Assembly: GCA_020831805.1 (NCBI GenBank) | Contig: JAFIFX010000002.1 | Coordinates: forward strand, 1-64,000 | Length of the DNA: 64,000 nucleotides | Source of the DNA: Planctomycetota bacterium | Lineage (GTDB): Bacteria > Planctomycetota > Phycisphaerae > Phycisphaerales > UBA1924 | Direction: 5' to 3' | Shown here: positions 19,025 to 35,924 of the stretch, piece by piece | How positions within the stretch are numbered: position 1 is the first letter of the stretch | Layout: each line of letters starts with the position of its first letter | Notes under the pieces: generated by a model | What the model was told of the DNA's origin: nothing | What the model saw: the letters and a program-made list of their open reading frames with translations, nothing else | The model's database searches: none | Position numbers and translations under genes: made by a program

Positions 19025-19080
19025 AAGCCCTGATGCGCGGCGTCCCCGCCCCATCCCATGACGCGCGGTACACTGCCCCC

Positions 19081-22000
19081 GTGAGCCGCACGACGACCCA
19101 GCCCGAACCGCCGACCCTGACGCTCTCCGACGAGCAGCGCGCGGCGGTCGAGCACGACGCCGGCCCGCTGATCGTGCTCGCCGGCCCCGGCACGGGCAAG
19201 ACCCGCGTGATCACCGCGCGGGTGGCCCACATGGTCCGCGAGCGCGGGGTCGACCCGGCCACCATCCTGGCCGTGACCTTCACGAACAAGGCGGCCGAGG
19301 AGCTGCGTGAGCGGATCGGCGCCCTGCTCGATCCCGTCACGGCCCGGGCCGTCAACGCGGGCACGATGCACGCCTACGGCATGGGCCTGCTCCGCCGGTT
19401 CGGCGACATGCTCGGGCTCCCGCCGGAGTTGAAGATCCTCGATGAGGCGCAGATCCGCCGTCTCGCGCGCGAGCTGATCCGCGCCAACGGGCTGTACCGG
19501 ATGTCCATCGGGCGGGGCATCGATCACGCGGTCGAGCACGGGCTGCGCGTCGCCCACGAGCTGGTCAGCGCCGGCGTCGCGCCGCGCGAGGCCCTGACGC
19601 GGATCGACCGCGCCGCGCAGGATCTTTCGTCCGACGGCTCGTCCGAGGCCCGGGCGCGCCGCGCCGAGCTGACCATCGCCCGCGAAGGCGCGGCCCTGGC
19701 CGGGCTGCTCGACGATGCGTGCCTGGAACGCGGCGTCGCCCGCTACGACGACCTGATCGCCTGGCCCATGCTGCTGCTGCGCCGCTCGCCCTTGGCGGCC
19801 GACATCGTGCGCCAGCAGTGCCGCCATGTCGTGGTCGACGAGTTCCAGGACTTCAACGCCACCCAGATCGCCTGGCTGGCCGCGCTCTGCCCGCCGAAGT
19901 CCGGGCCGGACCTGTGCGTCGTCGGCGATGATGATCAGTCCATCTACGGCTTCCGCGGCGCGGACGAGCGGGCCTTCGATCGGTTCGCCGACCAGTGGCC
20001 AGGCTCGACCACCCTGCGCCTGACCACCAACTACCGCAGCGGCGAGGCGATCGTCGGCGCGTCCAACGCCGTGATCGCCAGGGCGGGCTACCGCTTCGAC
20101 GACAGCAAGTTCGGCGTCGCCGGCCCGGGCGTGCCGGAGGGCTCCGCGGTCGAGCTGGTCCGCATCAGCGACGATCTGCGCGTGGGCGAGACCGCCGCGG
20201 CCATGATCCGGGCGCGCCTCGACGAGGATCCGGCGTTGGACCTGGGCGAGATCGCCATCATCGCCCGGACGAACAGGGAGCTGCTCCGCGCCTGCGACGC
20301 GATGGAGGCCCTGGGCATCCCGTTCACCTGCTCGACGCCGGGCGCGAACCCCGAGGACCCCGGCGTCCGCACGGTGCTCGCCTGGGCCGCCCTGGCGGTG
20401 GACCCCACGCGGACCTGGGCCGCCCGGGCAGTCCTGACGCGTCCGCCGTTCTCGCTCGACGCGCCGACGATCGCGACGCTCGACCACCGCTACCGCACGG
20501 CGCGGGCCTGGGCCAACGCGAACCCGGGCGAGGAGGAACCGGGCCCGTTCATCGCGTGGCTGAGCGCCCACGCGCCGGCGGCGACGGAGGACGCCCTCCG
20601 GCGCGCCGCCGAGATCGAGCGCGACATCGCCGAGTTCGCCGCCGCCACCACCGCAGACCACGCGCTGATGCACATCGTGCGGCTCACCGGCGCGGCCCAG
20701 GCGGAGGCGCTGGCCCCCCGGGAACGGGCCGTCCGCGTCCGCGCGATCATCGGGCTGCTCCGCTTCGCGCGCGAACGGCTCGACCGCCTCGACGAGCCCC
20801 GCGGCCTGCGCGAGCTGCTGGCCTACATCGACGACCTGCCCGACAAGGACAAGCTTTACGCCGCCACGCCCGAGAGCACCGTGGCCGGCGCCAACGAGCC
20901 CGATACCGCGGGGCCCGGCGTGCGCATGCTCACCGCCCACGCCAGCAAGGGGCTCGAGTTCGACACGGTCTACCTGCTGCGCTGCAGCAGCCCCCACGGG
21001 TTCCCCAGCCCCGGGGCCGAAGCGTCGGCCCTGCCCGAGGGCGTGCTCGACCCCGACCCGCAGGGGCGACCCCCCCGCGCCCGGCGCGATGACGAGGAGC
21101 GACGCATCTTCTTCGTCGCGCTGACCCGCGCCAAACGCCGGGCCGTGCTGCTCGCCAAGGTGCCGAAGAAGACGAGCGCGATCAACTACCCGCTCGAACT
21201 CCTGGCCGATCTCGGGCCCGGCTTGATCGAGCACGACGAGGCGGATGTCGCCCCGCCCGGCCTGGCCGACGGGCTCGCCGGGATGGAGATCGAGGCGGGC
21301 ACGGCCGGGCAGCGCTCCGCCATGCTGGCCGCCGAGCGACGCGCCGCACGCCGGGACGCCGCCGCCGCCCTCGACCTGGCCGAGACGCGCGACGAGCCGG
21401 ACGACGCCCTGGCCGAACGCCTCCGCGCGGCGGCCGAACGGCTCGCCGTGATCCGCGCCGTCGAACGCACCGGCCGCGTGCCCCGATGGGCGAAGGCCGC
21501 CGGGCTCGACGAGCTGGGCGATCGCCTCGCCGAACGCCTGCGCAAGGGCGAGACGCCGGTCCCCGTGTTCCCGCCCATCGACGGCCCGATGCGGCTGAGT
21601 TACTCCGCCATCAGCCAGTACCTCAAGTGCCCGCGGTGTTACTACATTGACTCCGTGCTCGAGATGCCGCAGGAATCCAGCGACGCGATGAGCCTCGGCA
21701 CAACCATCCACAGCGTGCTCCAGTCCTTTGGCAACGCGTGGTCCGAGGCGGACAACGAGGGCCGCCAAGCCCCCGGCTGGGACGAGCTGGAAGCCGAAAC
21801 CCGCCGCCGCTTCATGCAGGATTGGCCGCGTCACACCGAGTTCGACCCCGAGCAGCTCGAACGCGCCGTGGCCATGTCGCGTATCTTCTTCGAGCAACTC
21901 CACCCACAGAACGCCCACATCCTCCATGTCGAGCAGAAGTTCGAGATGCCCTTCGAGGTCGACGGCGTCGTCCACACCATCACCGGGAAGATCGACCGCA

Positions 22001-22338
22001 TCGACCAGGACCCCGGCGGCGGCTGCCGCCTGATCGACTACAAGACCGGTTATCCCACCAAGGAGCTGCGGGAGCCCAAGAAGAGCGATCTCCAGATGGG
22101 CATCTATGTCATGGCCCTGCCCGCGTTGAAGATCGAGCCGGGACCGGGGTCCGTCTGCGAATACTGGATGCTCGCCTCGGGCGACCGCGGCACGATCGGC
22201 TTCGACCGGCTCGAGATCGACAAGACCCGCGAGAAGATCGCCAAGGTCATCCGGGGCATGGCCGCGGGTGAATGGCACAAGGGATCCGACACCGCCTGCT
22301 CGGGATTCTGCGATTTTCTCGACGGACCACAGGATTAG
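19081..22338 (+). CDS. UvrD/REP superfamily 1 helicase with C-terminal PD-(D/E)XK nuclease domain
   Basis: AGPGTGKTRVI, DEFQDFN, GDDDQSIYGFRGA, TAHASKGLEFD; C-terminal GKIDRIDQ...LIDYKTG. Confidence 0.9.
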   Translation: MSRTTTQPEPPTLTLSDEQRAAVEHDAGPLIVLAGPGTGKTRVITARVAHMVRERGVDPATILAVTFTNKAAEELRERIGALLDPVTARAVNAGTMHAYGMGLLRRFGDMLGLPPELKILDEAQIRRLARELIRANGLYRMSIGRGIDHAVEHGLRVAHELVSAGVAPREALTRIDRAAQDLSSDGSSEARARRAELTIAREGAALAGLLDDACLERGVARYDDLIAWPMLLLRRSPLAADIVRQQCRHVVVDEFQDFNATQIAWLAALCPPKSGPDLCVVGDDDQSIYGFRGADERAFDRFADQWPGSTTLRLTTNYRSGEAIVGASNAVIARAGYRFDDSKFGVAGPGVPEGSAVELVRISDDLRVGETAAAMIRARLDEDPALDLGEIAIIARTNRELLRACDAMEALGIPFTCSTPGANPEDPGVRTVLAWAALAVDPTRTWAARAVLTRPPFSLDAPTIATLDHRYRTARAWANANPGEEEPGPFIAWLSAHAPAATEDALRRAAEIERDIAEFAAATTADHALMHIVRLTGAAQAEALAPRERAVRVRAIIGLLRFARERLDRLDEPRGLRELLAYIDDLPDKDKLYAATPESTVAGANEPDTAGPGVRMLTAHASKGLEFDTVYLLRCSSPHGFPSPGAEASALPEGVLDPDPQGRPPRARRDDEERRIFFVALTRAKRRAVLLAKVPKKTSAINYPLELLADLGPGLIEHDEADVAPPGLADGLAGMEIEAGTAGQRSAMLAAERRAARRDAAAALDLAETRDEPDDALAERLRAAAERLAVIRAVERTGRVPRWAKAAGLDELGDRLAERLRKGETPVPVFPPIDGPMRLSYSAISQYLKCPRCYYIDSVLEMPQESSDAMSLGTTIHSVLQSFGNAWSEADNEGRQAPGWDELEAETRRRFMQDWPRHTEFDPEQLERAVAMSRIFFEQLHPQNAHILHVEQKFEMPFEVDGVVHTITGKIDRIDQDPGGGCRLIDYKTGYPTKELREPKKSDLQMGIYVMALPALKIEPGPGSVCEYWMLASGDRGTIGFDRLEIDKTREKIAKVIRGMAAGEWHKGSDTACSGFCDFLDGPQD

Positions 22339-25194: not shown

Positions 25195-26076
25195 TTACTC
25201 CAGGGCCGCGGCGCCCGAGATGATCTCGGTCAACTCCGTGGTGATCTGGGCCTGGCGGGCGCGGTTGAACTGACGCCGCAGGCTGTTGCCCATCTTGCCG
25301 GCGTTGTCGGTCGCGGCCTTCATGGCCACCATCCGCGCGATGTGCTCGGAGACCACCGCGTCGTTGAACGCCTGGAACAGCACGGCCTTGACCGCCGCGG
25401 GCAGGATCGCGTCGAGCAGCTCGCCCGCGTCGGGCGAGAACTCATAGATCTCGGTGCGGCCCGTCGCGCCCTCGCCCTCACCGGTCTCCTTGACCGGGGC
25501 CGAGAACGGCAGCAGCTGGAGCACCTCGGGCCGCTGGCGCCCGGCGGAGAAGTACTTCATGTAGATCACGCGCACGGCCGAGACGCGGCCCTCGGTGAAC
25601 GCGTCGATGAACGACTGGGCCATCCGCTCGATGTCCTCGTAGCGGGGCTTGTCGCCGATGTGGCTGTGATGGGTAAAGCCGGTGTAGCCGTTGAACTTGA
25701 GCGTGTTGGCGCCCTTCTTGCCGATCACCTCGATCGGCCCGCCGGAGGCCTTGGCGTCGCCGCGCAGGTGGTTGAGCGCCGCGCGGACGATGGTGCCGTT
25801 GTACGGCCCGCACAGCCCGCGGTCGGCGGTGATGATCAGCGTCAGCTCCGGCGCATCGCCCTCGGGCGTGCTCAGCAGCGGGTGCCCCTCGCCCACCCCG
25901 GCCGCCCCGAGCTGCCCGACGAGGCCGAACAGCGCCTCGGTGTACGGCTTGGAGGCGACGGAGGCCTGCTGGGCCTTGGAGAACTTGCTGGTGGCGATCA
26001 TCTGCATCGTGCGCGTGATGCGCTTGATGTTCCCGACCGCCTTCATGCGCTTCTTGATCTCGCGGCTTTTTCCCAT
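25195..26076 (-). CDS. atpG: F0F1 ATP synthase subunit gamma
   Basis: MGKSREIKKRMKAVGNIKRITRTMQMIATSKFSKAQ. Confidence 0.96.
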   Translation of the reverse strand: MGKSREIKKRMKAVGNIKRITRTMQMIATSKFSKAQQASVASKPYTEALFGLVGQLGAAGVGEGHPLLSTPEGDAPELTLIITADRGLCGPYNGTIVRAALNHLRGDAKASGGPIEVIGKKGANTLKFNGYTGFTHHSHIGDKPRYEDIERMAQSFIDAFTEGRVSAVRVIYMKYFSAGRQRPEVLQLLPFSAPVKETGEGEGATGRTEIYEFSPDAGELLDAILPAAVKAVLFQAFNDAVVSEHIARMVAMKAATDNAGKMGNSLRRQFNRARQAQITTELTEIISGAAALE

Positions 26077-26369: not shown

Positions 26370-28916
26370 TTAGGTGTCATCGTCCACGATCATTTTGTCT
26401 TGGAGGTCTACGGCCATGCGGTACTCCAGCGACTCAGCCACCTGCGGCCAGAGCAAACCGTAGTATGTGAAAGCTTCTTGAGTCGCAGAATCCAGCGATG
26501 ATTCTGCGGGTCGCACTGTGATCCGCCGTCCCACATTGATGAGCCGCTGCGCCAAGTCCATCATCGACTCCAGCGTGACCACTCTGAGGTCCGGGGGCGG
26601 ATTTGCTTGTGCTACAACGTCGCCTAGGTCGCCGATAATCCATACTTGGCCCATCAGGTGTTTATGGTTCTGACTTAACCACTCTCGACTATCGAGGGCT
26701 TGGCCGATATCGCGTGTCTTCTTGTAGACTACTGGTTTAGTCCTTTGGGTCTTCGCCTCTAGACCAATCGCATCCTTCGACTCGGGGCATAGCCAAGCCA
26801 CATCCGGCCCCTTGTTGTCCGGCTTCTTCTCAGGCCTACTGGATTCGAGCCCGAGCAACGAGCCTAAGTCGCAAAGTGCCTGCTCGTGGTGCTCTGCGTT
26901 CGGCCCCCCATCACCTTGCAACCGCTCTAGGACGGACCTCGCCGCCGTTTCGAGAGAGCCCTTGGCGGCAATGACCGATCTTTTTGCCTGCTCCGATATG
27001 GCCGCAGGCACATGTGCTGCACCCACCGTGGCTCCTGCCGGCGTGGGACGGCCCAGCATCGTCTTCAGATTCGCAGCCTGCTGGAAGGCGATCGCGGCTG
27101 CGGCTGTATCTCCCTCCTGGAGGTGAGCTACACCGCACCAATGGAGGTGCCATGCTGCTAAACCCCGGTCGTTCTCGGTCAACTCATTGCCGAGCCCGTT
27201 CAGTGCATCCGCAGCCGTCCGGTGGCGGCCTTCCCACATATGGGTCCAGGCGTCGTACTCCTTCCTCGCCGCGCCGTCGCCCCATGCGGGCTCTTTGGGG
27301 CGACTCTCGGTGGCGATCTCTGCGAGTTTGGCGTTATAGAGGTCGTCCCAATCCTTCTCACCTTGGATGACCTTCAGCATGAGGTCGGGATAAGCCATTT
27401 CCTCATCGCCATTATCTTCGAGCGATTTACGAATCGCCGCTCCGAGTAATACCTGCTGCTGGAGCAAATCGGGTAGATACGCCATGTTGTCAGGCTGGCG
27501 AAGCCAGCTTTGCAATACCTTGTCAGCTAGCACTACAACGCCGTGGTCGGTGTTGCTGCGGAAAATTCGGCCAATTGCCTGAGTCAATCGGCCTGCCGTT
27601 TGCGAAAGGCGAAACTTCTTTGAGTCCAACTGGTCCTCCACAAAACGATCGTGAAGGCAGGCTCCTCGTGGAATGCCGTCTAGTACTAGAATCTTACATG
27701 CTTTGCCAGGTAAGTCGATCCCATCGAAGAGGCCCGCGAGGATAATCTTGTGGGTGTCCGTCGCATCAGCGAAAGCCTTGATGCCAGTATGTCCCGATTT
27801 GCTGTCGTATACGGTTCCGATGTCCTTCCATCGTTCGGCTGCACGCTTTGATGGGACGATGATGCAGGCTTTGTGTTCACCGACCATCTCGCGTGTTTGG
27901 TCGTAGGCGTTCGTATTCAAGTCACCCTGCGGGAATGCAAACAATCGCTGTGCTGCACCGATTTTTCCGGAAGGGGAGATGACATCGGCACGGTCCACAC
28001 CGAAGGTGCGGATGCATTCGTATCGGGAAGGAAGTGTTGCTGTTAAGTACAAGCGTCGTACATCTTGTCCAAAGTAGGAAAGGGAATGCGTGGGTATAAC
28101 CGGTGGCGTTATCTCAATTCCGCCCTGTGAAATGAAAAAAGCGCAATCCGCCAAATGATCCTGTAGGTGCCGGTAGGCGTAGCGAGTTGAATGGGACTCC
28201 GGTGCATCTACGCCATTCCCGGCCAGTACTTGTGCGATTTCTATGCGATGCTCCCAGACGAACCACGCCGGAACGAACAGCACGCCTTCTTCATATCGTT
28301 CCGATTGTATGAAACGTGAAAAACGGGCGGCGTACGGAGAGTGCTCAAAATGGGTGCGGAAAATGCTCATAAGAGGCCCCCATGCGGAGTGCTCTGAGGG
28401 GACGAGCATGGTGAAGCATGAGCGGATCGTAGCGGGTGCGACATGGGCATCATCAAATAGCACTGCTCGGATTGTGTCATCCAAGAAAGGGCTTCCCCCG
28501 CGGAATGCGGCATGATAGTTGGTCACGCAGCAGCAATCAGCCGAGTCGTACTGATCTCGGTTTGTCCAAGTCTGGGATCCGTATGTCGCAACAGTGATGC
28601 CGCAATCTTCAGCCTGTGCGGCTGTCTGTTGTACAAGTTGATTGGTGGGGCAGATGTACAGCACCTTTCCCCTTGTCTCATTTACGAGGGATTGTGCAGC
28701 GAGGAGTCCAACGAGGGTCTTCCCGCCCCCAGTGTTCATCGAAAACAGGACATCGGGTTTGGACCGGTACTTCTCGTGCCAAAGATTTAGGGCCTCTTGC
28801 TGGGGACCGTAGAGCGTCTCTACATTTCCTCTCTGCGTCAGCCCGCCAAATATTAGAATTGGATTTGTCTCTCGCTTCTTTGCCCCTAGGTCGAGCTTGA
28901 GCTTCGAAAGGTCCAT
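26370..28916 (-). CDS. SF2 (DinG/XPD-like) helicase with C-terminal PD-(D/E)XK-like nuclease domain; putative defence protein
   Basis: SMNTGGGKTLVGLLAAQ, VLFDDAHVA, LTATLPS, LFDGIDLPGKACKILVLDGIPRG, QAIGRIFRS; C-terminal GPDVAWLCPESKDAIGLEAKTQ. Confidence 0.8.
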   Translation of the reverse strand: MDLSKLKLDLGAKKRETNPILIFGGLTQRGNVETLYGPQQEALNLWHEKYRSKPDVLFSMNTGGGKTLVGLLAAQSLVNETRGKVLYICPTNQLVQQTAAQAEDCGITVATYGSQTWTNRDQYDSADCCCVTNYHAAFRGGSPFLDDTIRAVLFDDAHVAPATIRSCFTMLVPSEHSAWGPLMSIFRTHFEHSPYAARFSRFIQSERYEEGVLFVPAWFVWEHRIEIAQVLAGNGVDAPESHSTRYAYRHLQDHLADCAFFISQGGIEITPPVIPTHSLSYFGQDVRRLYLTATLPSRYECIRTFGVDRADVISPSGKIGAAQRLFAFPQGDLNTNAYDQTREMVGEHKACIIVPSKRAAERWKDIGTVYDSKSGHTGIKAFADATDTHKIILAGLFDGIDLPGKACKILVLDGIPRGACLHDRFVEDQLDSKKFRLSQTAGRLTQAIGRIFRSNTDHGVVVLADKVLQSWLRQPDNMAYLPDLLQQQVLLGAAIRKSLEDNGDEEMAYPDLMLKVIQGEKDWDDLYNAKLAEIATESRPKEPAWGDGAARKEYDAWTHMWEGRHRTAADALNGLGNELTENDRGLAAWHLHWCGVAHLQEGDTAAAAIAFQQAANLKTMLGRPTPAGATVGAAHVPAAISEQAKRSVIAAKGSLETAARSVLERLQGDGGPNAEHHEQALCDLGSLLGLESSRPEKKPDNKGPDVAWLCPESKDAIGLEAKTQRTKPVVYKKTRDIGQALDSREWLSQNHKHLMGQVWIIGDLGDVVAQANPPPDLRVVTLESMMDLAQRLINVGRRITVRPAESSLDSATQEAFTYYGLLWPQVAESLEYRMAVDLQDKMIVDDDT

Positions 28917-29014
28917 TTGTACTCCAATGTTTGGATGACGAACCCGATTCGTATATCTATGACGACATATTCGAATGCTGCGATTGAGATGGCCTCGCAC
29001 CTCACGCTAGTAGT

Positions 29015-29224
29015 TTAGGCGTCAGGCCCTCCTTCGGCCCTCCCCATCGCGTCGAGGATCCGCATTGCCAGCTCCACCGTGATCCCGTGATACTCGTTTC
29101 GCTCGTCCCACGAGACCGTCCACTTGTTCACGCCAAGATGCTCCACCTGATGTTCTTCCTGCCCGAGACGGTTCAGGCAGCCCTGTTCCCCGACTGTCTC
29201 ATGACCCTTCCAGTGTCGCATCAC
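29015..29224 (-). CDS. Small hypothetical ORF upstream of the helicase
   Basis: 69-aa ORF, same strand as helicase; no family recognised; may be a remnant. Confidence 0.25.
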   Translation of the reverse strand: MMRHWKGHETVGEQGCLNRLGQEEHQVEHLGVNKWTVSWDERNEYHGITVELAMRILDAMGRAEGGPDA

Positions 29225-29292: not shown

Positions 29293-29976
29293 ATGACCCA
29301 ATCAAAACCCAATCAGAGTATCCCCCACCCCCTCCTCACCGACCTCCTCGACCACGCCCTGGCCCTCCCCGAGGTCGCACGGCGGCACGACATGCCGCTG
29401 CCCGAGATCGCCCGCATCCTCGAATCACCCGCCTTCGCCGAGGCTGCGGCGGCGTTCGCCCGGGCCGTCGAGATCCGGGCCGGGGCCCTGCGGCCGCTGG
29501 CCAACGCCCGGGCCCTGGCCGCGGCCTGCCGCGTCATGAACCAGGAGATCACCTCCGCCGCCCGGGCCGAATCGGTCCGCAAGGCGGTGGGCATGGTGCT
29601 GCGGTGGCAGGATGGGGCATCGCCGGAGCCCGACGCCGGCCGGTCGCCATCCGGGGCCGCATCCTCCGAGGACGCGGTGCGGCCCGGGCGAGCCGGGCGG
29701 CCCGACGGGGCCGGGTTCACCGCCGAAAAGCCGGCTGGGCGCATGGATCCGCGGCCCGGCCCCCCGTCCGATCGGGCCGCCAAGCCCCTTGTGAGGCCAT
29801 CCGACGATGAAGTGGAGTCTGGCGCCGCGGCGCTCCGGCCCGGCACATCGCCCGCGGCTCAGCTCCAGGCGGCCGCCGGTGAGGGGCCGCCGCCGTGGAC
29901 GCGCGGGATCGGGTCGTTGCGGCTGGAAGAACTCGAAGCCCTGGTCAAAGCGGGCGTGCCCGCCGCGGTGGGCTGA
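29293..29976 (+). CDS. Hypothetical protein
   Basis: Coding-like ORF with Ala/Arg-rich helical N-terminus; no family recognised. Confidence 0.55.
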   Translation: MTQSKPNQSIPHPLLTDLLDHALALPEVARRHDMPLPEIARILESPAFAEAAAAFARAVEIRAGALRPLANARALAAACRVMNQEITSAARAESVRKAVGMVLRWQDGASPEPDAGRSPSGAASSEDAVRPGRAGRPDGAGFTAEKPAGRMDPRPGPPSDRAAKPLVRPSDDEVESGAAALRPGTSPAAQLQAAAGEGPPPWTRGIGSLRLEELEALVKAGVPAAVG

Positions 29977-31185: not shown

Positions 31186-33582
31186 TTACGGGCAGCCGGC
31201 GTTGAAGAGCCGGAAGAACACGACAAAGTCGAAGAAGTTCAGGAGTCCGTCGCCGTTGAAATCGGCCCGAGGGTCACCGGCGTTGAAGAGCTGGATGAAA
31301 CGGGCGATGTCATAGAGGTTCAGGACGCCGTCGGTGATGAGGTCCGGAAGGCAGGGCTCGATCGAGCGGTTGTAGAGGATGGTGGCGCCCGACCCCGTGG
31401 CGTAGATGACATCCGGCAGGCCGTCGGCGTTCAGGTCGATGAACTCGGCGGCGACTGGGTTGAGGGCGGAGTAGGAGCGGGACCGTGCCTCGAAGTTTCC
31501 CTGGGGGTTGGCGTGCAGCACCTCGATCACGCGGCCTCGGACAGCGACAAGGTCCAGCCTGCCGTCGGCGTTGACATCAAAGGGCTGGATCCACTCGATC
31601 GACGAAGATGCGATCGGTGTGGAGATGGTTTGCGGCGGCGTGTACTGGCGCGGGCCTGTGGCGTAGTTGACGGCGATCGTGGAGGTCGATGCGACGGCGA
31701 TGTCGAGCAGCCCGTTGTTGGTAAAGTCCGCGGCGACCAGGCGGACGCCTCTCGTGCTGCCCCCGGCGTTGTTGAAGGTTGGGATGCTGACGGGCGCCTC
31801 GAAGCTGCCGTCCGGACGGCCGTAGGCGACATAGACGGCGCCGTTGCCGCTGGTGAGGCGGTTGAGGCAGAGCAGGTCGGGATACCCGTCGGCGTCCAGG
31901 TCGGCGACCGCGAGCGATCCGGGGCTGGATGTGAGCGAGAGGGTGGCGGTGGTCGGTTCGGAGAACGATCCGTCTGGCTGTGCGTGGTAGATGTATGCGA
32001 TGCCGTCCGAGCGGAGGAGGACGAGGTCGTCGCGGCCGTTGGCGTTCAGGTCCGTGAGGACGGGGTTGGTGGGGTTGGACAGGCCGAAGTTCTGAAAGAT
32101 CGCTTCTTCGAAGCCGCCATCGGGCTTGCCGAGGAGCACGACGGATTGGCCGTGGCCGATCGAGATGAGGTCTGGGATGCCGTCGCCGTTGATGTCGGCG
32201 TTGGTGATGAAGCCTCTGGCGGCGGACGGGATGCTCGGTTCGGGGATGTCTTCGATTTCGAGTCGGTGCCCGGCGCCATCGGGGACCGGGGTGAGCCTGC
32301 GGAACTGTCTCGGGCCTTCGCCGTAGGCCAGGATGAAGGACGGCGTGCCATCGAGGAGGTCATTTCGCAGCATGGCCTGGAAGAGGTTCGTGCTCGGGCT
32401 CGGGAGGGCGGTTCTCGTGTAGGTCGCGCTCTCGCGGTAGGAGTCCTGGTCGTCGGTGGGGAAAGCGACCCAGCCGAAGGGGCTCGTGGTGGCGTAGATG
32501 ACATCCTGGCGTCCGTTGCCGTTGATGTCGCCGAGCGTGACATGGCGGAACTCGGCGAACTGTCCGATGGGCGGGATGATCTCGCGGAAGATGCCCGGTT
32601 CGTCGGTGTCGGCGGAGATCACGCTGGCGACGCCATCGCCCATGAATGACGGGAAGATGTCGGCCCGCTGCACGGAGCGGTCTGTGGTGGCGACGGCGCC
32701 CGTGATGGTGACGGCGCCGTACGCCTGTGTCCCGGGTCCGGCCGGTTCACGGACTTCGTAGGCGTTCGTGCCGGGGTTGAAAACATAGTGGCCGGCCCGG
32801 TAGTTGGTGGTGTTGACCCATACGAGATTCTTGACGCCGTCGTGGTTCACATCGGCGGCGAGTATCGTCGCGGCGCTTCCCCCGACGAGGTTGACGCTGA
32901 TCCCGAGTTGCCACGACCCGGCCGGCGTGGCATGGATGATTCTCAGTCGGCTCGCCGCGTGCAGGACCGCGACATCGAGAAGGCCGTCCGCGTTGAAATC
33001 CTCGATGACCAGCTTCTGGACATTGCCCAGGTCTGACTGAAGGTTGAGCAGGAACTGGGGGACCGAGAAGACGGCGTCTCCCAGGTTGTGATGGACAAGG
33101 GCGGAGACCGAGCTGGCGACCACGATGTCGGTCTTGCCGGACTGATTCATGTCCGCGGCGACCAGGATCTCGCCGTTGGCGGTCGGCATCGGGCTTTCCG
33201 GAGCAGGCGTGAGTTGCCCGTCGGCGTTGTTGAGCAGGATGTGGACGATGCCGTGGGTGTTGGAGAGGATCAGGAGGTCTTCGAGGCCGTTGTTGTTGAT
33301 GTCGGCTTTGGTGAAGCTCGCCAGGTTCGTGCCGAGGAGCGTGACGATCTGCTGCGGCTCGAACTCACCGTCGTCGAGGGCGTGGAAGATCTGGTATCGG
33401 ACGGGGTTGGTCCCGAGCACGATCACATCGTCCCGCCCGTTGCCGGTCAGGTCGGTCGCGAGGATGCCGGCCGGCTGGAAGGTCAGCGGCTGGTAGGTGC
33501 TTGTGGTGCGGATGTTGTCCCCCGCGGCAGCGGCGGTGAGGAACATCGATGCCATGACGACGGGGGCGAGACGCGTTCTCAC
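31186..33582 (-). CDS. FG-GAP/VCBS repeat exported protein with Cys-framed dockerin-like C-terminus
   Basis: Repeated DxNxNGxxDLL motifs; C-term CLPDLITDGVLNLYDIARFIQLFNAGDPRADFNGDGLLNFFDFVVFFRLFNAGCP. Confidence 0.82.
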   Translation of the reverse strand: MRTRLAPVVMASMFLTAAAAGDNIRTTSTYQPLTFQPAGILATDLTGNGRDDVIVLGTNPVRYQIFHALDDGEFEPQQIVTLLGTNLASFTKADINNNGLEDLLILSNTHGIVHILLNNADGQLTPAPESPMPTANGEILVAADMNQSGKTDIVVASSVSALVHHNLGDAVFSVPQFLLNLQSDLGNVQKLVIEDFNADGLLDVAVLHAASRLRIIHATPAGSWQLGISVNLVGGSAATILAADVNHDGVKNLVWVNTTNYRAGHYVFNPGTNAYEVREPAGPGTQAYGAVTITGAVATTDRSVQRADIFPSFMGDGVASVISADTDEPGIFREIIPPIGQFAEFRHVTLGDINGNGRQDVIYATTSPFGWVAFPTDDQDSYRESATYTRTALPSPSTNLFQAMLRNDLLDGTPSFILAYGEGPRQFRRLTPVPDGAGHRLEIEDIPEPSIPSAARGFITNADINGDGIPDLISIGHGQSVVLLGKPDGGFEEAIFQNFGLSNPTNPVLTDLNANGRDDLVLLRSDGIAYIYHAQPDGSFSEPTTATLSLTSSPGSLAVADLDADGYPDLLCLNRLTSGNGAVYVAYGRPDGSFEAPVSIPTFNNAGGSTRGVRLVAADFTNNGLLDIAVASTSTIAVNYATGPRQYTPPQTISTPIASSSIEWIQPFDVNADGRLDLVAVRGRVIEVLHANPQGNFEARSRSYSALNPVAAEFIDLNADGLPDVIYATGSGATILYNRSIEPCLPDLITDGVLNLYDIARFIQLFNAGDPRADFNGDGLLNFFDFVVFFRLFNAGCP

Positions 33583-35924
33583 GGGCAGCCCTCCTGATAG
33601 AGCTGCAGGAAGCGGGCGACATCGAAGAAGTTGAACTCACCGTCCCAGTTCAGGTCGGCGACGGGGTCGGCGTCGTTGTAGGCGTCGATGAAGGCGGCGA
33701 GGTCGAAGAGGTTGATCTCGCCGTCCGGGACGAAATCGATCGGGCAGTAATCGCCGGTGGAGCGGTTGGGCATGAAGGTGAAGCCGGAGCCGTTGGCCAG
33801 GTAGATGTCGGGGATGCCGTTGTCGTTCGAATCGGCGAGCATGACGCCGATGGGGTTCGCGGGCGTATAGAACCGGTGCCTGCGGCTGAAGAGTCCCTGC
33901 GGTCCGTGTCCGACAATTTCCGCGTTGCTGTTGAAAAAAGTGATGACTTCGTTCCGGCCGTCGCCGTTCATGTCAGCGATCTGGACGGAGCGGATGCCCG
34001 AGCCGGACGATACGGTGAGGGGGGGCAGGTAGGAGCGTGGGCCGTCGGAGAGGTAGACGACGGTGTTGTTGCCCTGGGCGACCGCGAGGTCGAGGTACGG
34101 GCTGTTGTTGATTCTGCCGGCGGCGAGGACATCGTTCTGTGTCGAGCCGTTGTTTCCGGCGGCCGGCAGCACGATGGGCTGTTCGAATGTGCCGTCCCCG
34201 CGGCCGTAGGCGATGTGCATGCGGTTGAGCGCGCCGCTGCCGGCCTGGGACTGTGTGGCGATGAGGTCGGCGTGGCCGTCCAGATCGAGGTCCGCGGTGA
34301 TGAACGAGCTAAAACCGCTGGACGCGCTGAACTGGACGGCGACCGGGGCCGAGAGGAAGCCGGACGGCTGACCGAAGAGGATGAACGCGGTCCCGTTGAT
34401 GCCCAGGGTGGCGATGTCGGCGATCCCGTCGCCGTTGAAGTCCGCCGAGACGATGTGGTGGATGGTGGTGGTGTCGGTCACGGGCCGGTTGATGGGGATG
34501 CCGAACGAGCCGTCGGCGTTGCCGAGCTGCCACCGGATGATGGCGGGCCCGGAGCCGCTGGCGACAAAGACGAAGTCGTCGATGCCGTCGCCGTTGATGT
34601 CCGCGAGCAAGAACCGGCCGCTCGAGTTGGTTGTCGGGCGCGTCTCGGATTGGATCGAGAAGGATTCGAAGCCGGGGATGATGCTGAAGATGGTCGTGGG
34701 CTGGAAGTTCGTTCTTTCGACGGCGAGTGCCGGCGTACCGAAAACGGTGGTGTAGGGCCTGGTGGCTCTGATGGTCGTATCCGTATCGACCGTGGCCCCG
34801 TTACCCGCGAAGCCGCCCTGGCTGCCCTGCTCGAAGATGATGATGCCGGGCGGGTTCATGCCGATATACGCGATGGCTTTCTTACCGTCGCCGTTGTGGT
34901 CGAGAATCGCGGGGAAGCGGAGATCGTTGTAACGACCGAACGGGGGCTGGGTCTCCCTGTAGAAAGTGGTGGGGACGGGGTCCCAGTAGGAGACGGTGGT
35001 CAGGCCGCTGCCGCTGAAGCCGTAGACGATATCCGGCATCGAGTTGCCGTTGACGTCGCCGAAGGTGACGGATGCCGCGTTGAGGGCTCGTCCGGTGGGC
35101 GGGATGAAGAGGGTGTAGGCGTTCTGGACCGGGTTGTACCGGACGACGCCGACGCGGGCGGCGTTGGTGACCGGGATGATCAGGTCGGAGCGTGAGTCGA
35201 GATCGACATCGGCGACGCCGATCGCGAGGCCGTTGCTGCCGAGGTTGATCGTCTGGGCGAACGCGTAGGTCTGGCCGGCGGTCTCGTAGATCGCGAGGTT
35301 CGCGCTGTTGAGGATGGCGATTTCCTTTGTTCCATCGCCTCTGAGGTCGGCGGCCGCGATGATCACATTCGTGTTCGTCGCGGGGATGGGGAACTGCGTG
35401 GGGAAGTTGAAGCCGCTGCCGCCGCCGAGATTCTGGTGGATGGCCACGGCGTCGTTCGAAACGACCAGGATGTCCGGGAATCCGTCGGCGTTCGTGTCGG
35501 CCACGGTGATGTTCCTGGCGCCCGTGATCGTCGGGACGGGCGACCAGATGGGCTCGACCAGGCCTTGCTCCTCGGTGTTGAGGAACACACGCACCGCGAG
35601 GGAGGATTGCGAGAAGATCAGCAGGTCCTGGCGTTGGTTGCCGTTGATATCGGCGATGACCGGACGATGGACGGATCCGGTGAGATTCGTGGTCGGTCCC
35701 GGCTCAAATCCGCCTTCGGGCGTGGCGTAGTAGATCTGGAAGCGGTTGGGCGAGTTGAAGAAGAGGATCAGGTCGTCCCGCCCGTCGGCGTTGGCGTCGA
35801 AGGAGATCATGTCCGTTGGTGAGGTGTCGAGGGGCAAGAACGAGCCTGCTGTGCTGAAATCGGTCTGGGCCGCAAGGGCGGCGTGTCCGATGGCGATCGG
35901 GAGCAACGCGAGCAGTGGCTTCAT
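33579..35924 (-). CDS. FG-GAP/VCBS repeat exported protein with Cys-framed dockerin-like C-terminus
   Basis: Paralog of 31186-33582; 4-nt overlap with it; C-term CPIDFVPDGEINLFDLAAFIDAY...FNFFDVARFLQLYQEGCP. Confidence 0.82.
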   Translation of the reverse strand: MKPLLALLPIAIGHAALAAQTDFSTAGSFLPLDTSPTDMISFDANADGRDDLILFFNSPNRFQIYYATPEGGFEPGPTTNLTGSVHRPVIADINGNQRQDLLIFSQSSLAVRVFLNTEEQGLVEPIWSPVPTITGARNITVADTNADGFPDILVVSNDAVAIHQNLGGGSGFNFPTQFPIPATNTNVIIAAADLRGDGTKEIAILNSANLAIYETAGQTYAFAQTINLGSNGLAIGVADVDLDSRSDLIIPVTNAARVGVVRYNPVQNAYTLFIPPTGRALNAASVTFGDVNGNSMPDIVYGFSGSGLTTVSYWDPVPTTFYRETQPPFGRYNDLRFPAILDHNGDGKKAIAYIGMNPPGIIIFEQGSQGGFAGNGATVDTDTTIRATRPYTTVFGTPALAVERTNFQPTTIFSIIPGFESFSIQSETRPTTNSSGRFLLADINGDGIDDFVFVASGSGPAIIRWQLGNADGSFGIPINRPVTDTTTIHHIVSADFNGDGIADIATLGINGTAFILFGQPSGFLSAPVAVQFSASSGFSSFITADLDLDGHADLIATQSQAGSGALNRMHIAYGRGDGTFEQPIVLPAAGNNGSTQNDVLAAGRINNSPYLDLAVAQGNNTVVYLSDGPRSYLPPLTVSSGSGIRSVQIADMNGDGRNEVITFFNSNAEIVGHGPQGLFSRRHRFYTPANPIGVMLADSNDNGIPDIYLANGSGFTFMPNRSTGDYCPIDFVPDGEINLFDLAAFIDAYNDADPVADLNWDGEFNFFDVARFLQLYQEGCP

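Follow-up and report, generated by a model that had tools for sequence, protein, structure and literature searches.

The window analysed here, a stretch of 64,000 nucleotides (positions 1 to 64,000 of contig JAFIFX010000002.1, from a Planctomycetota bacterium), carries at 26370-28916 on the reverse strand an intact open reading frame (ORF) that runs from an ATG at 28916 to a stop at 26370 and encodes 848 amino acids (aa). The original prediction, made from the sequence alone, had described this gene as the fusion of a DinG/XPD-like helicase with a PD-(D/E)XK-like nuclease, forming a candidate single-gene defence system that was not recognised as a named one. The ORF stands, with its length corrected from 849 aa because the stop codon had been counted, and full-length family and structure matches bear out the fusion. 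The system does have a name: we are confident that the gene belongs to Hna, a family of defence genes that act by abortive infection through a single protein, and that it was acquired horizontally by a planctomycete, with the closest named relative in a Phycisphaerae genome. Hna (helicase-nuclease abortive infection) was first described, and found to be phage-protective, in Sinorhizobium meliloti, and has been studied by cryo-electron microscopy and biochemistry (PMC13381803, PMC12445080). The gene and its domains are as follows.

26370..28916, reverse strand: hna homologue, 848 aa, an intact ORF with matches to PDC-S28 (1.8e-208) and to Hna in the Protein Data Bank (PDB; 2.1e-47), and with 9yhn and 9ykj as top Foldseek matches
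27507..28916, reverse strand: DinG/XPD-like superfamily 2 (SF2) helicase core, residues ~1-470, from Pfam hits and columns near-invariant in 85 homologues
26901..27506, reverse strand: helical linker, residues ~471-672, modelled by AlphaFold as mostly helices, with 16.8% identity to S. meliloti Hna
26607..26900, reverse strand: PD-(D/E)XK nuclease core, residues ~673-770, from catalytic residues conserved in homologues and the topology of the model

A longer alternative start, a GTG at 29000, is available. The ATG at 28916 is favoured because a GGAG lies a few bases upstream, at Shine-Dalgarno distance, and the N-terminus matches the family start 'MxDFxKL'. As originally predicted, the gene is richer in AT than its surroundings, with a GC content of 0.557 and a GC content at third codon positions (GC3) of 0.61 compared to 0.86-0.97 in the flanking genes. 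The segment of foreign composition spans ~26.27-29.25 kb of the window.

The assignment to Hna rests on family models and on structure. Two PADLOC models carry the label PDC-S28 (PDLC04987 and PDLC04986), and the PADLOC check proposed with the original prediction gave full-length matches to both, one at 693 bits (1.8e-208, residues 2-833) and the other at 483 bits (3.5e-145). Since the Hna of S. meliloti matches the same two models, also over its whole length, at 1020 (sister model) and 400 bits, PDC-S28 is the Hna family. In a study of defence in Bacillus cereus, PDC-S28 was among the PADLOC candidates that DefenseFinder names as another system (PMC11811056). A phmmer search of the PDB sequences found a single full-length relative, an 845-aa protein (entries 10uj, 9yhn and 9ykj; 2.1e-47, window protein residues 13-749), which is the Hna of S. 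meliloti (PMC13381803). Its gene is located on pSymA (SMa2245). An AlphaFold model of the window protein, built with 56 aligned sequences, had a mean predicted local distance difference test score of 88.6. When this model was compared with the PDB using Foldseek, the Hna monomer 9yhn ranked first (E 5.6e-40, template modelling scores 0.64/0.66) and the first three ranks were taken by the monomer and both dimer chains (5.6e-40, 4.5e-31 and 4.9e-17), followed by XPD and DinG. The root-mean-square deviation of the 9yhn superposition was high (14.4 Å), which may reflect domain movement. Complete homologues are nearly all 812-868 aa long. Full-length homology, the PD-(D/E)XK residues and the three-dimensional structure thus place the protein in the family, as a distant member of Hna and not a new kind of system.

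The motifs listed in the original prediction are all present, namely NTGGGKT (61-67), DDAH (155-158), TATLPS, FDGIDLPGK, QAIGRIFR and GPDVAW...LEAKT. In the helicase core, where Pfam detected ResIII (9.4e-14), DEAD (1.1e-11) and Helicase_C_2 (7.3e-10), the motif residues are Q39, GGGKT 63-67, DDAH 155-158, AT 293-294, DGID 398-401, QxxGR 446-450 and R453. Conservation was assessed over 85 near-full-length homologues, and Q39, the Walker A glycines and lysine, both aspartates of DDAH, G399/D401, Q446, GR 449-450 and R453 are invariant. The histidine of DDAH is near-invariant, and this Walker B, which had been thought unusual, is the family norm. Only C258 and C407 are strongly conserved cysteines in the family and there is no four-cysteine iron-sulfur (Fe-S) set, so that the N-terminal module is, as in Hna, a DinG/XPD-like SF2 helicase lacking the cysteines of an Fe-S cluster. 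The middle section had been called TPR-like. It is helical in the model, and a TPR domain was not supported (Pfam TPR_2, E=0.31, not significant).

At the C-terminus, P704, D705, E720 and K722 align with P712, D713, E727 and K729 of S. meliloti Hna, where K729A is the published nuclease-dead mutant (PMC13381803). D705 is found in 85/85 homologues, E720 in 82/85 and K722 in 84/85. Residues 674-761 of the model form a helix-strand-strand-strand-helix-strand core. The original prediction had named a different C-terminal fold as the result that would overturn it, and this topology, together with the D/E/K alignment to Hna, agrees with PD-(D/E)XK. Conservation of the nuclease in the window protein is therefore likely.

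Departures from the nuclease motif were seen in other homologues. Just one further Hna-like protein was found within the same taxonomic family (L042:2686-5292, genome G028); in it E-D-Y replaces E-x-K at the nuclease site and the nuclease may be inactive or changed. Two archaeal homologues from Candidatus Methanoperedens (L094 and L099) keep the catalytic lysine, but their catalytic glutamate is replaced by A or S.

The gene lies next to atpG (25195-26076), as originally noted. atpG was present in 37/37 genomes searched. A homologue of the window protein was absent from 2/2 genomes of the same genus, and a set of 36 genomes of the family yielded a single, divergent copy. One of the same-genus genomes keeps the order UvrD-M16 peptidase-atpG-metallo-beta-lactamase (MBL) fold gene, with ~0.34 kb between atpG and the MBL gene compared to 4.2 kb in the window, and in a more distant genome of the family atpG and the MBL gene are likewise adjacent, with a gap of ~0.3 kb. 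An atp operon interrupted by hna was rejected, as the gene order around atpG is no different in the same-genus genome, where hna is missing. No tRNA was found at the borders of the insert, nor any convincing flanking repeat or target-site duplication, and a mobile element around the insert was also rejected. Across the phylum, long matches were found in 7/393 sampled genomes including the window's own (~2%). The frequency of Hna quoted for bacteria is ~2% (PMC13381803). Homologues were found on 231 plasmid records, 188 of which cover at least 80% of the query. A Hna-like helicase gene was also seen inside a Salmonella integrating conjugative element that is filed in a phage collection (L161, AFYI01000007.1).

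This distribution bears on whether the protein instead has a housekeeping role in DNA repair, as a DinG/XPD-type helicase that acts like the ExoDinG 3'-5' exonuclease and not in defence, which we consider highly improbable. DinG and XPD are indeed the next structural neighbours and a Helicase_C_2 domain is present, but the full-length match is to Hna and not to DinG, and Hna is phage-protective (PMC12445080). We looked for conserved presence and synteny in the genus and family and found neither, which counts against a housekeeping role; housekeeping-like conserved synteny was among the results that the original prediction had said would refute it. The patchy presence, the empty site in the same-genus genome, the foreign composition and the family scores led us to reject the repair helicase.

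A tree of 85 rows, built quickly and with several homologues from metagenome bins, placed the window protein in a group (100% in the Shimodaira-Hasegawa-like approximate likelihood ratio test, SH-aLRT) with proteins of Acidobacteriota, Rhodothermota, Fidelibacterota and other Planctomycetota. The group is nested in a branch of 34 rows, apart from the branch of 47 rows that holds S. meliloti Hna. Planctomycete sequences are scattered over several positions in the tree, a placement that agrees with transfer between phyla. The absence of the gene from both same-genus genomes, one with an empty site between atpG and the MBL gene, its long homologues in ~2% of the sampled phylum genomes and its close relatives in other phyla indicate that it was acquired horizontally.

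Two further ORFs lie between hna and the MBL gene.

29015..29221, reverse strand: 68-aa ORF, just upstream of hna, similar to an XRE/HTH_3 domain in its second half (the recognition half), from its identity to helix-turn-helix (HTH)-like proteins
29293-29976, forward strand: GC-rich ORF for a protein of 227 aa, one of a repeated family, also in the atpG-MBL gap, with no Pfam match

The 68-aa ORF had no Pfam match itself and is 61% and 56% identical, over 34-38 aa, to HTH-like proteins from two genomes within the order, of which one also falls in the same family. It is probably a degraded remnant of a regulator or antitoxin, with only putative membership of the system, and was considered weak as an antitoxin partner as it looks like an HTH remnant. 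The ORF at 29293-29976 was rejected as a partner, since it has host-like GC and belongs to a repeated family whose matches so far are in this genome (four) and in one same-genus genome (five). Further along, at 31186-35924 on the reverse strand, are two adjacent FG-GAP repeat proteins of ~800 aa each that look like tandem duplicates; a dockerin match in the second was weak. A lone gene with unameliorated GC and a probable HTH remnant beside it might be a dormant passenger, that is, an acquired gene that is intact but unexpressed or non-functional. Set against this are the complete 848-aa frame, the presence of all catalytic residues and the Shine-Dalgarno-like site, and we think it unlikely.

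Beside 16 of the nearest homologues, ORFs with strong matches to GajA, GajB, HmaB, HmaC, a DruM-like methylase, type I specificity subunits and SoFic were found; with the window as the only control and the best 25 of 287 families considered, this enrichment is supporting evidence only. When the 38 other ORFs of the window were compared with PADLOC, the best 25 of 37 families were all UvrD-type helicase models (GajB, RTasHel), each with one ORF, because a UvrD/PDDEXK protein at 19033-22338 is present, which is kept in the same-genus genomes.

If the protein acts as proposed for S. meliloti Hna, the DinG/XPD-like ATPase module would bind ATP and single-stranded DNA (ssDNA) without unwinding, and in this state would keep the C-terminal PD-(D/E)XK domain off. 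A phage factor from replication, which in the S. meliloti case is the ssDNA-binding protein (SSB) of phage 5A, would relieve the inhibition, the released nuclease would degrade ssDNA in the 3'-5' direction, and the infected cell would fail before phage release. For S. meliloti Hna, ATP binding is the nuclease-off state, and the phage SSB turns on a 3'-5' ssDNA exonuclease such that infection is aborted (PMC13381803). By homology we infer the nuclease polarity, the phage trigger, the abortive outcome and any activity of the window protein in its host. The single-gene anti-phage role originally proposed thus holds at the level of the family, as Hna is protective in S. meliloti; for the anti-plasmid activity proposed with it, nothing was found.

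Several observations weigh against the Hna assignment and the mechanism that goes with it. The window protein is only ~25% identical to S. meliloti Hna and lies in the other deep branch, and its C-terminal 78 residues (4.4% identity) form an unrelated tail. No defence island was found around hna, and no methyltransferase partner (its lack had been noted originally), among the matches listed for the 38 other ORFs of the window, and both were rejected there. The dimer-loop residues T30/D31/P34 of S. meliloti Hna are G30/N31/T34 in the window protein, and R36 at the ATP site is Y, with W in 33/34 of the members of the branch. As these residues are not conserved in the branch of the window protein, the carry-over of ATP-driven autoinhibition is in doubt; the nuclease and the ATPase are expected to be common to both proteins, but the switch and phage trigger of the window protein may differ from those of S. 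meliloti Hna. T30/D31/P34 were not treated as defining membership of Hna, because they vary across the 85 homologues, and most members of the S. meliloti branch itself have other residues there.

The branch of the window protein (PDLC04987) could be of the same family but regulated differently, lacking the T30/D31/P34 switch and with W/Y for R36; what it senses may be ssDNA ends or another protein of the phage. The two branches are separate (34 and 47 members, 98 and 100% SH-aLRT), and both the residue at position 36 and the G/x/D-type loop fit this possibility. On the other hand, the loop is short and its alignment uncertain, the ATPase motifs have all been retained along with Q39, and T30/D31/P34 are also in the minority on the S. 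meliloti side, so that dimerisation may use other contacts. We put this forward tentatively, as somewhat less probable than not. The fuller proposal, that the branch keeps nuclease and ATPase but uses another autoinhibition surface and another phage trigger, is given the same guarded standing.

The assignment to Hna links an unnamed PADLOC candidate to a system that has been studied mechanistically, and, with a clean empty site, extends Hna to a phylum that has been little studied. A divergent orthologue also makes it possible to ask how general the dimer switch and the SSB trigger described for S. meliloti Hna are. The loop has been described as highly conserved, though the residues mutated in it are not conserved across the 85 homologues, which calls the generality of the dimer switch into question.

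Compared with known systems, the protein shares the fold and motifs of its helicase core with DinG, ExoDinG, CRISPR-associated DinG and XPD. It has no full-length match to any of these, their nuclease is absent or of another kind, and partial scores are weak, with the NCBIfam DinG, YoaA and Rad3 models giving 19-29 bits on the window protein against cut-offs of 247-789. Hachiman, Gabija and Nhi also couple a helicase-like module to a nuclease (PMC13381803), but have other components and gave no full-length match among the PADLOC models. PDC-S28 matches over the full length and differs in being a computational label only, here equated with Hna. The S. meliloti Hna, the top structural match, has the same length, domain order, ATPase motifs including DDAH, and PD-(D/E)XK residues.
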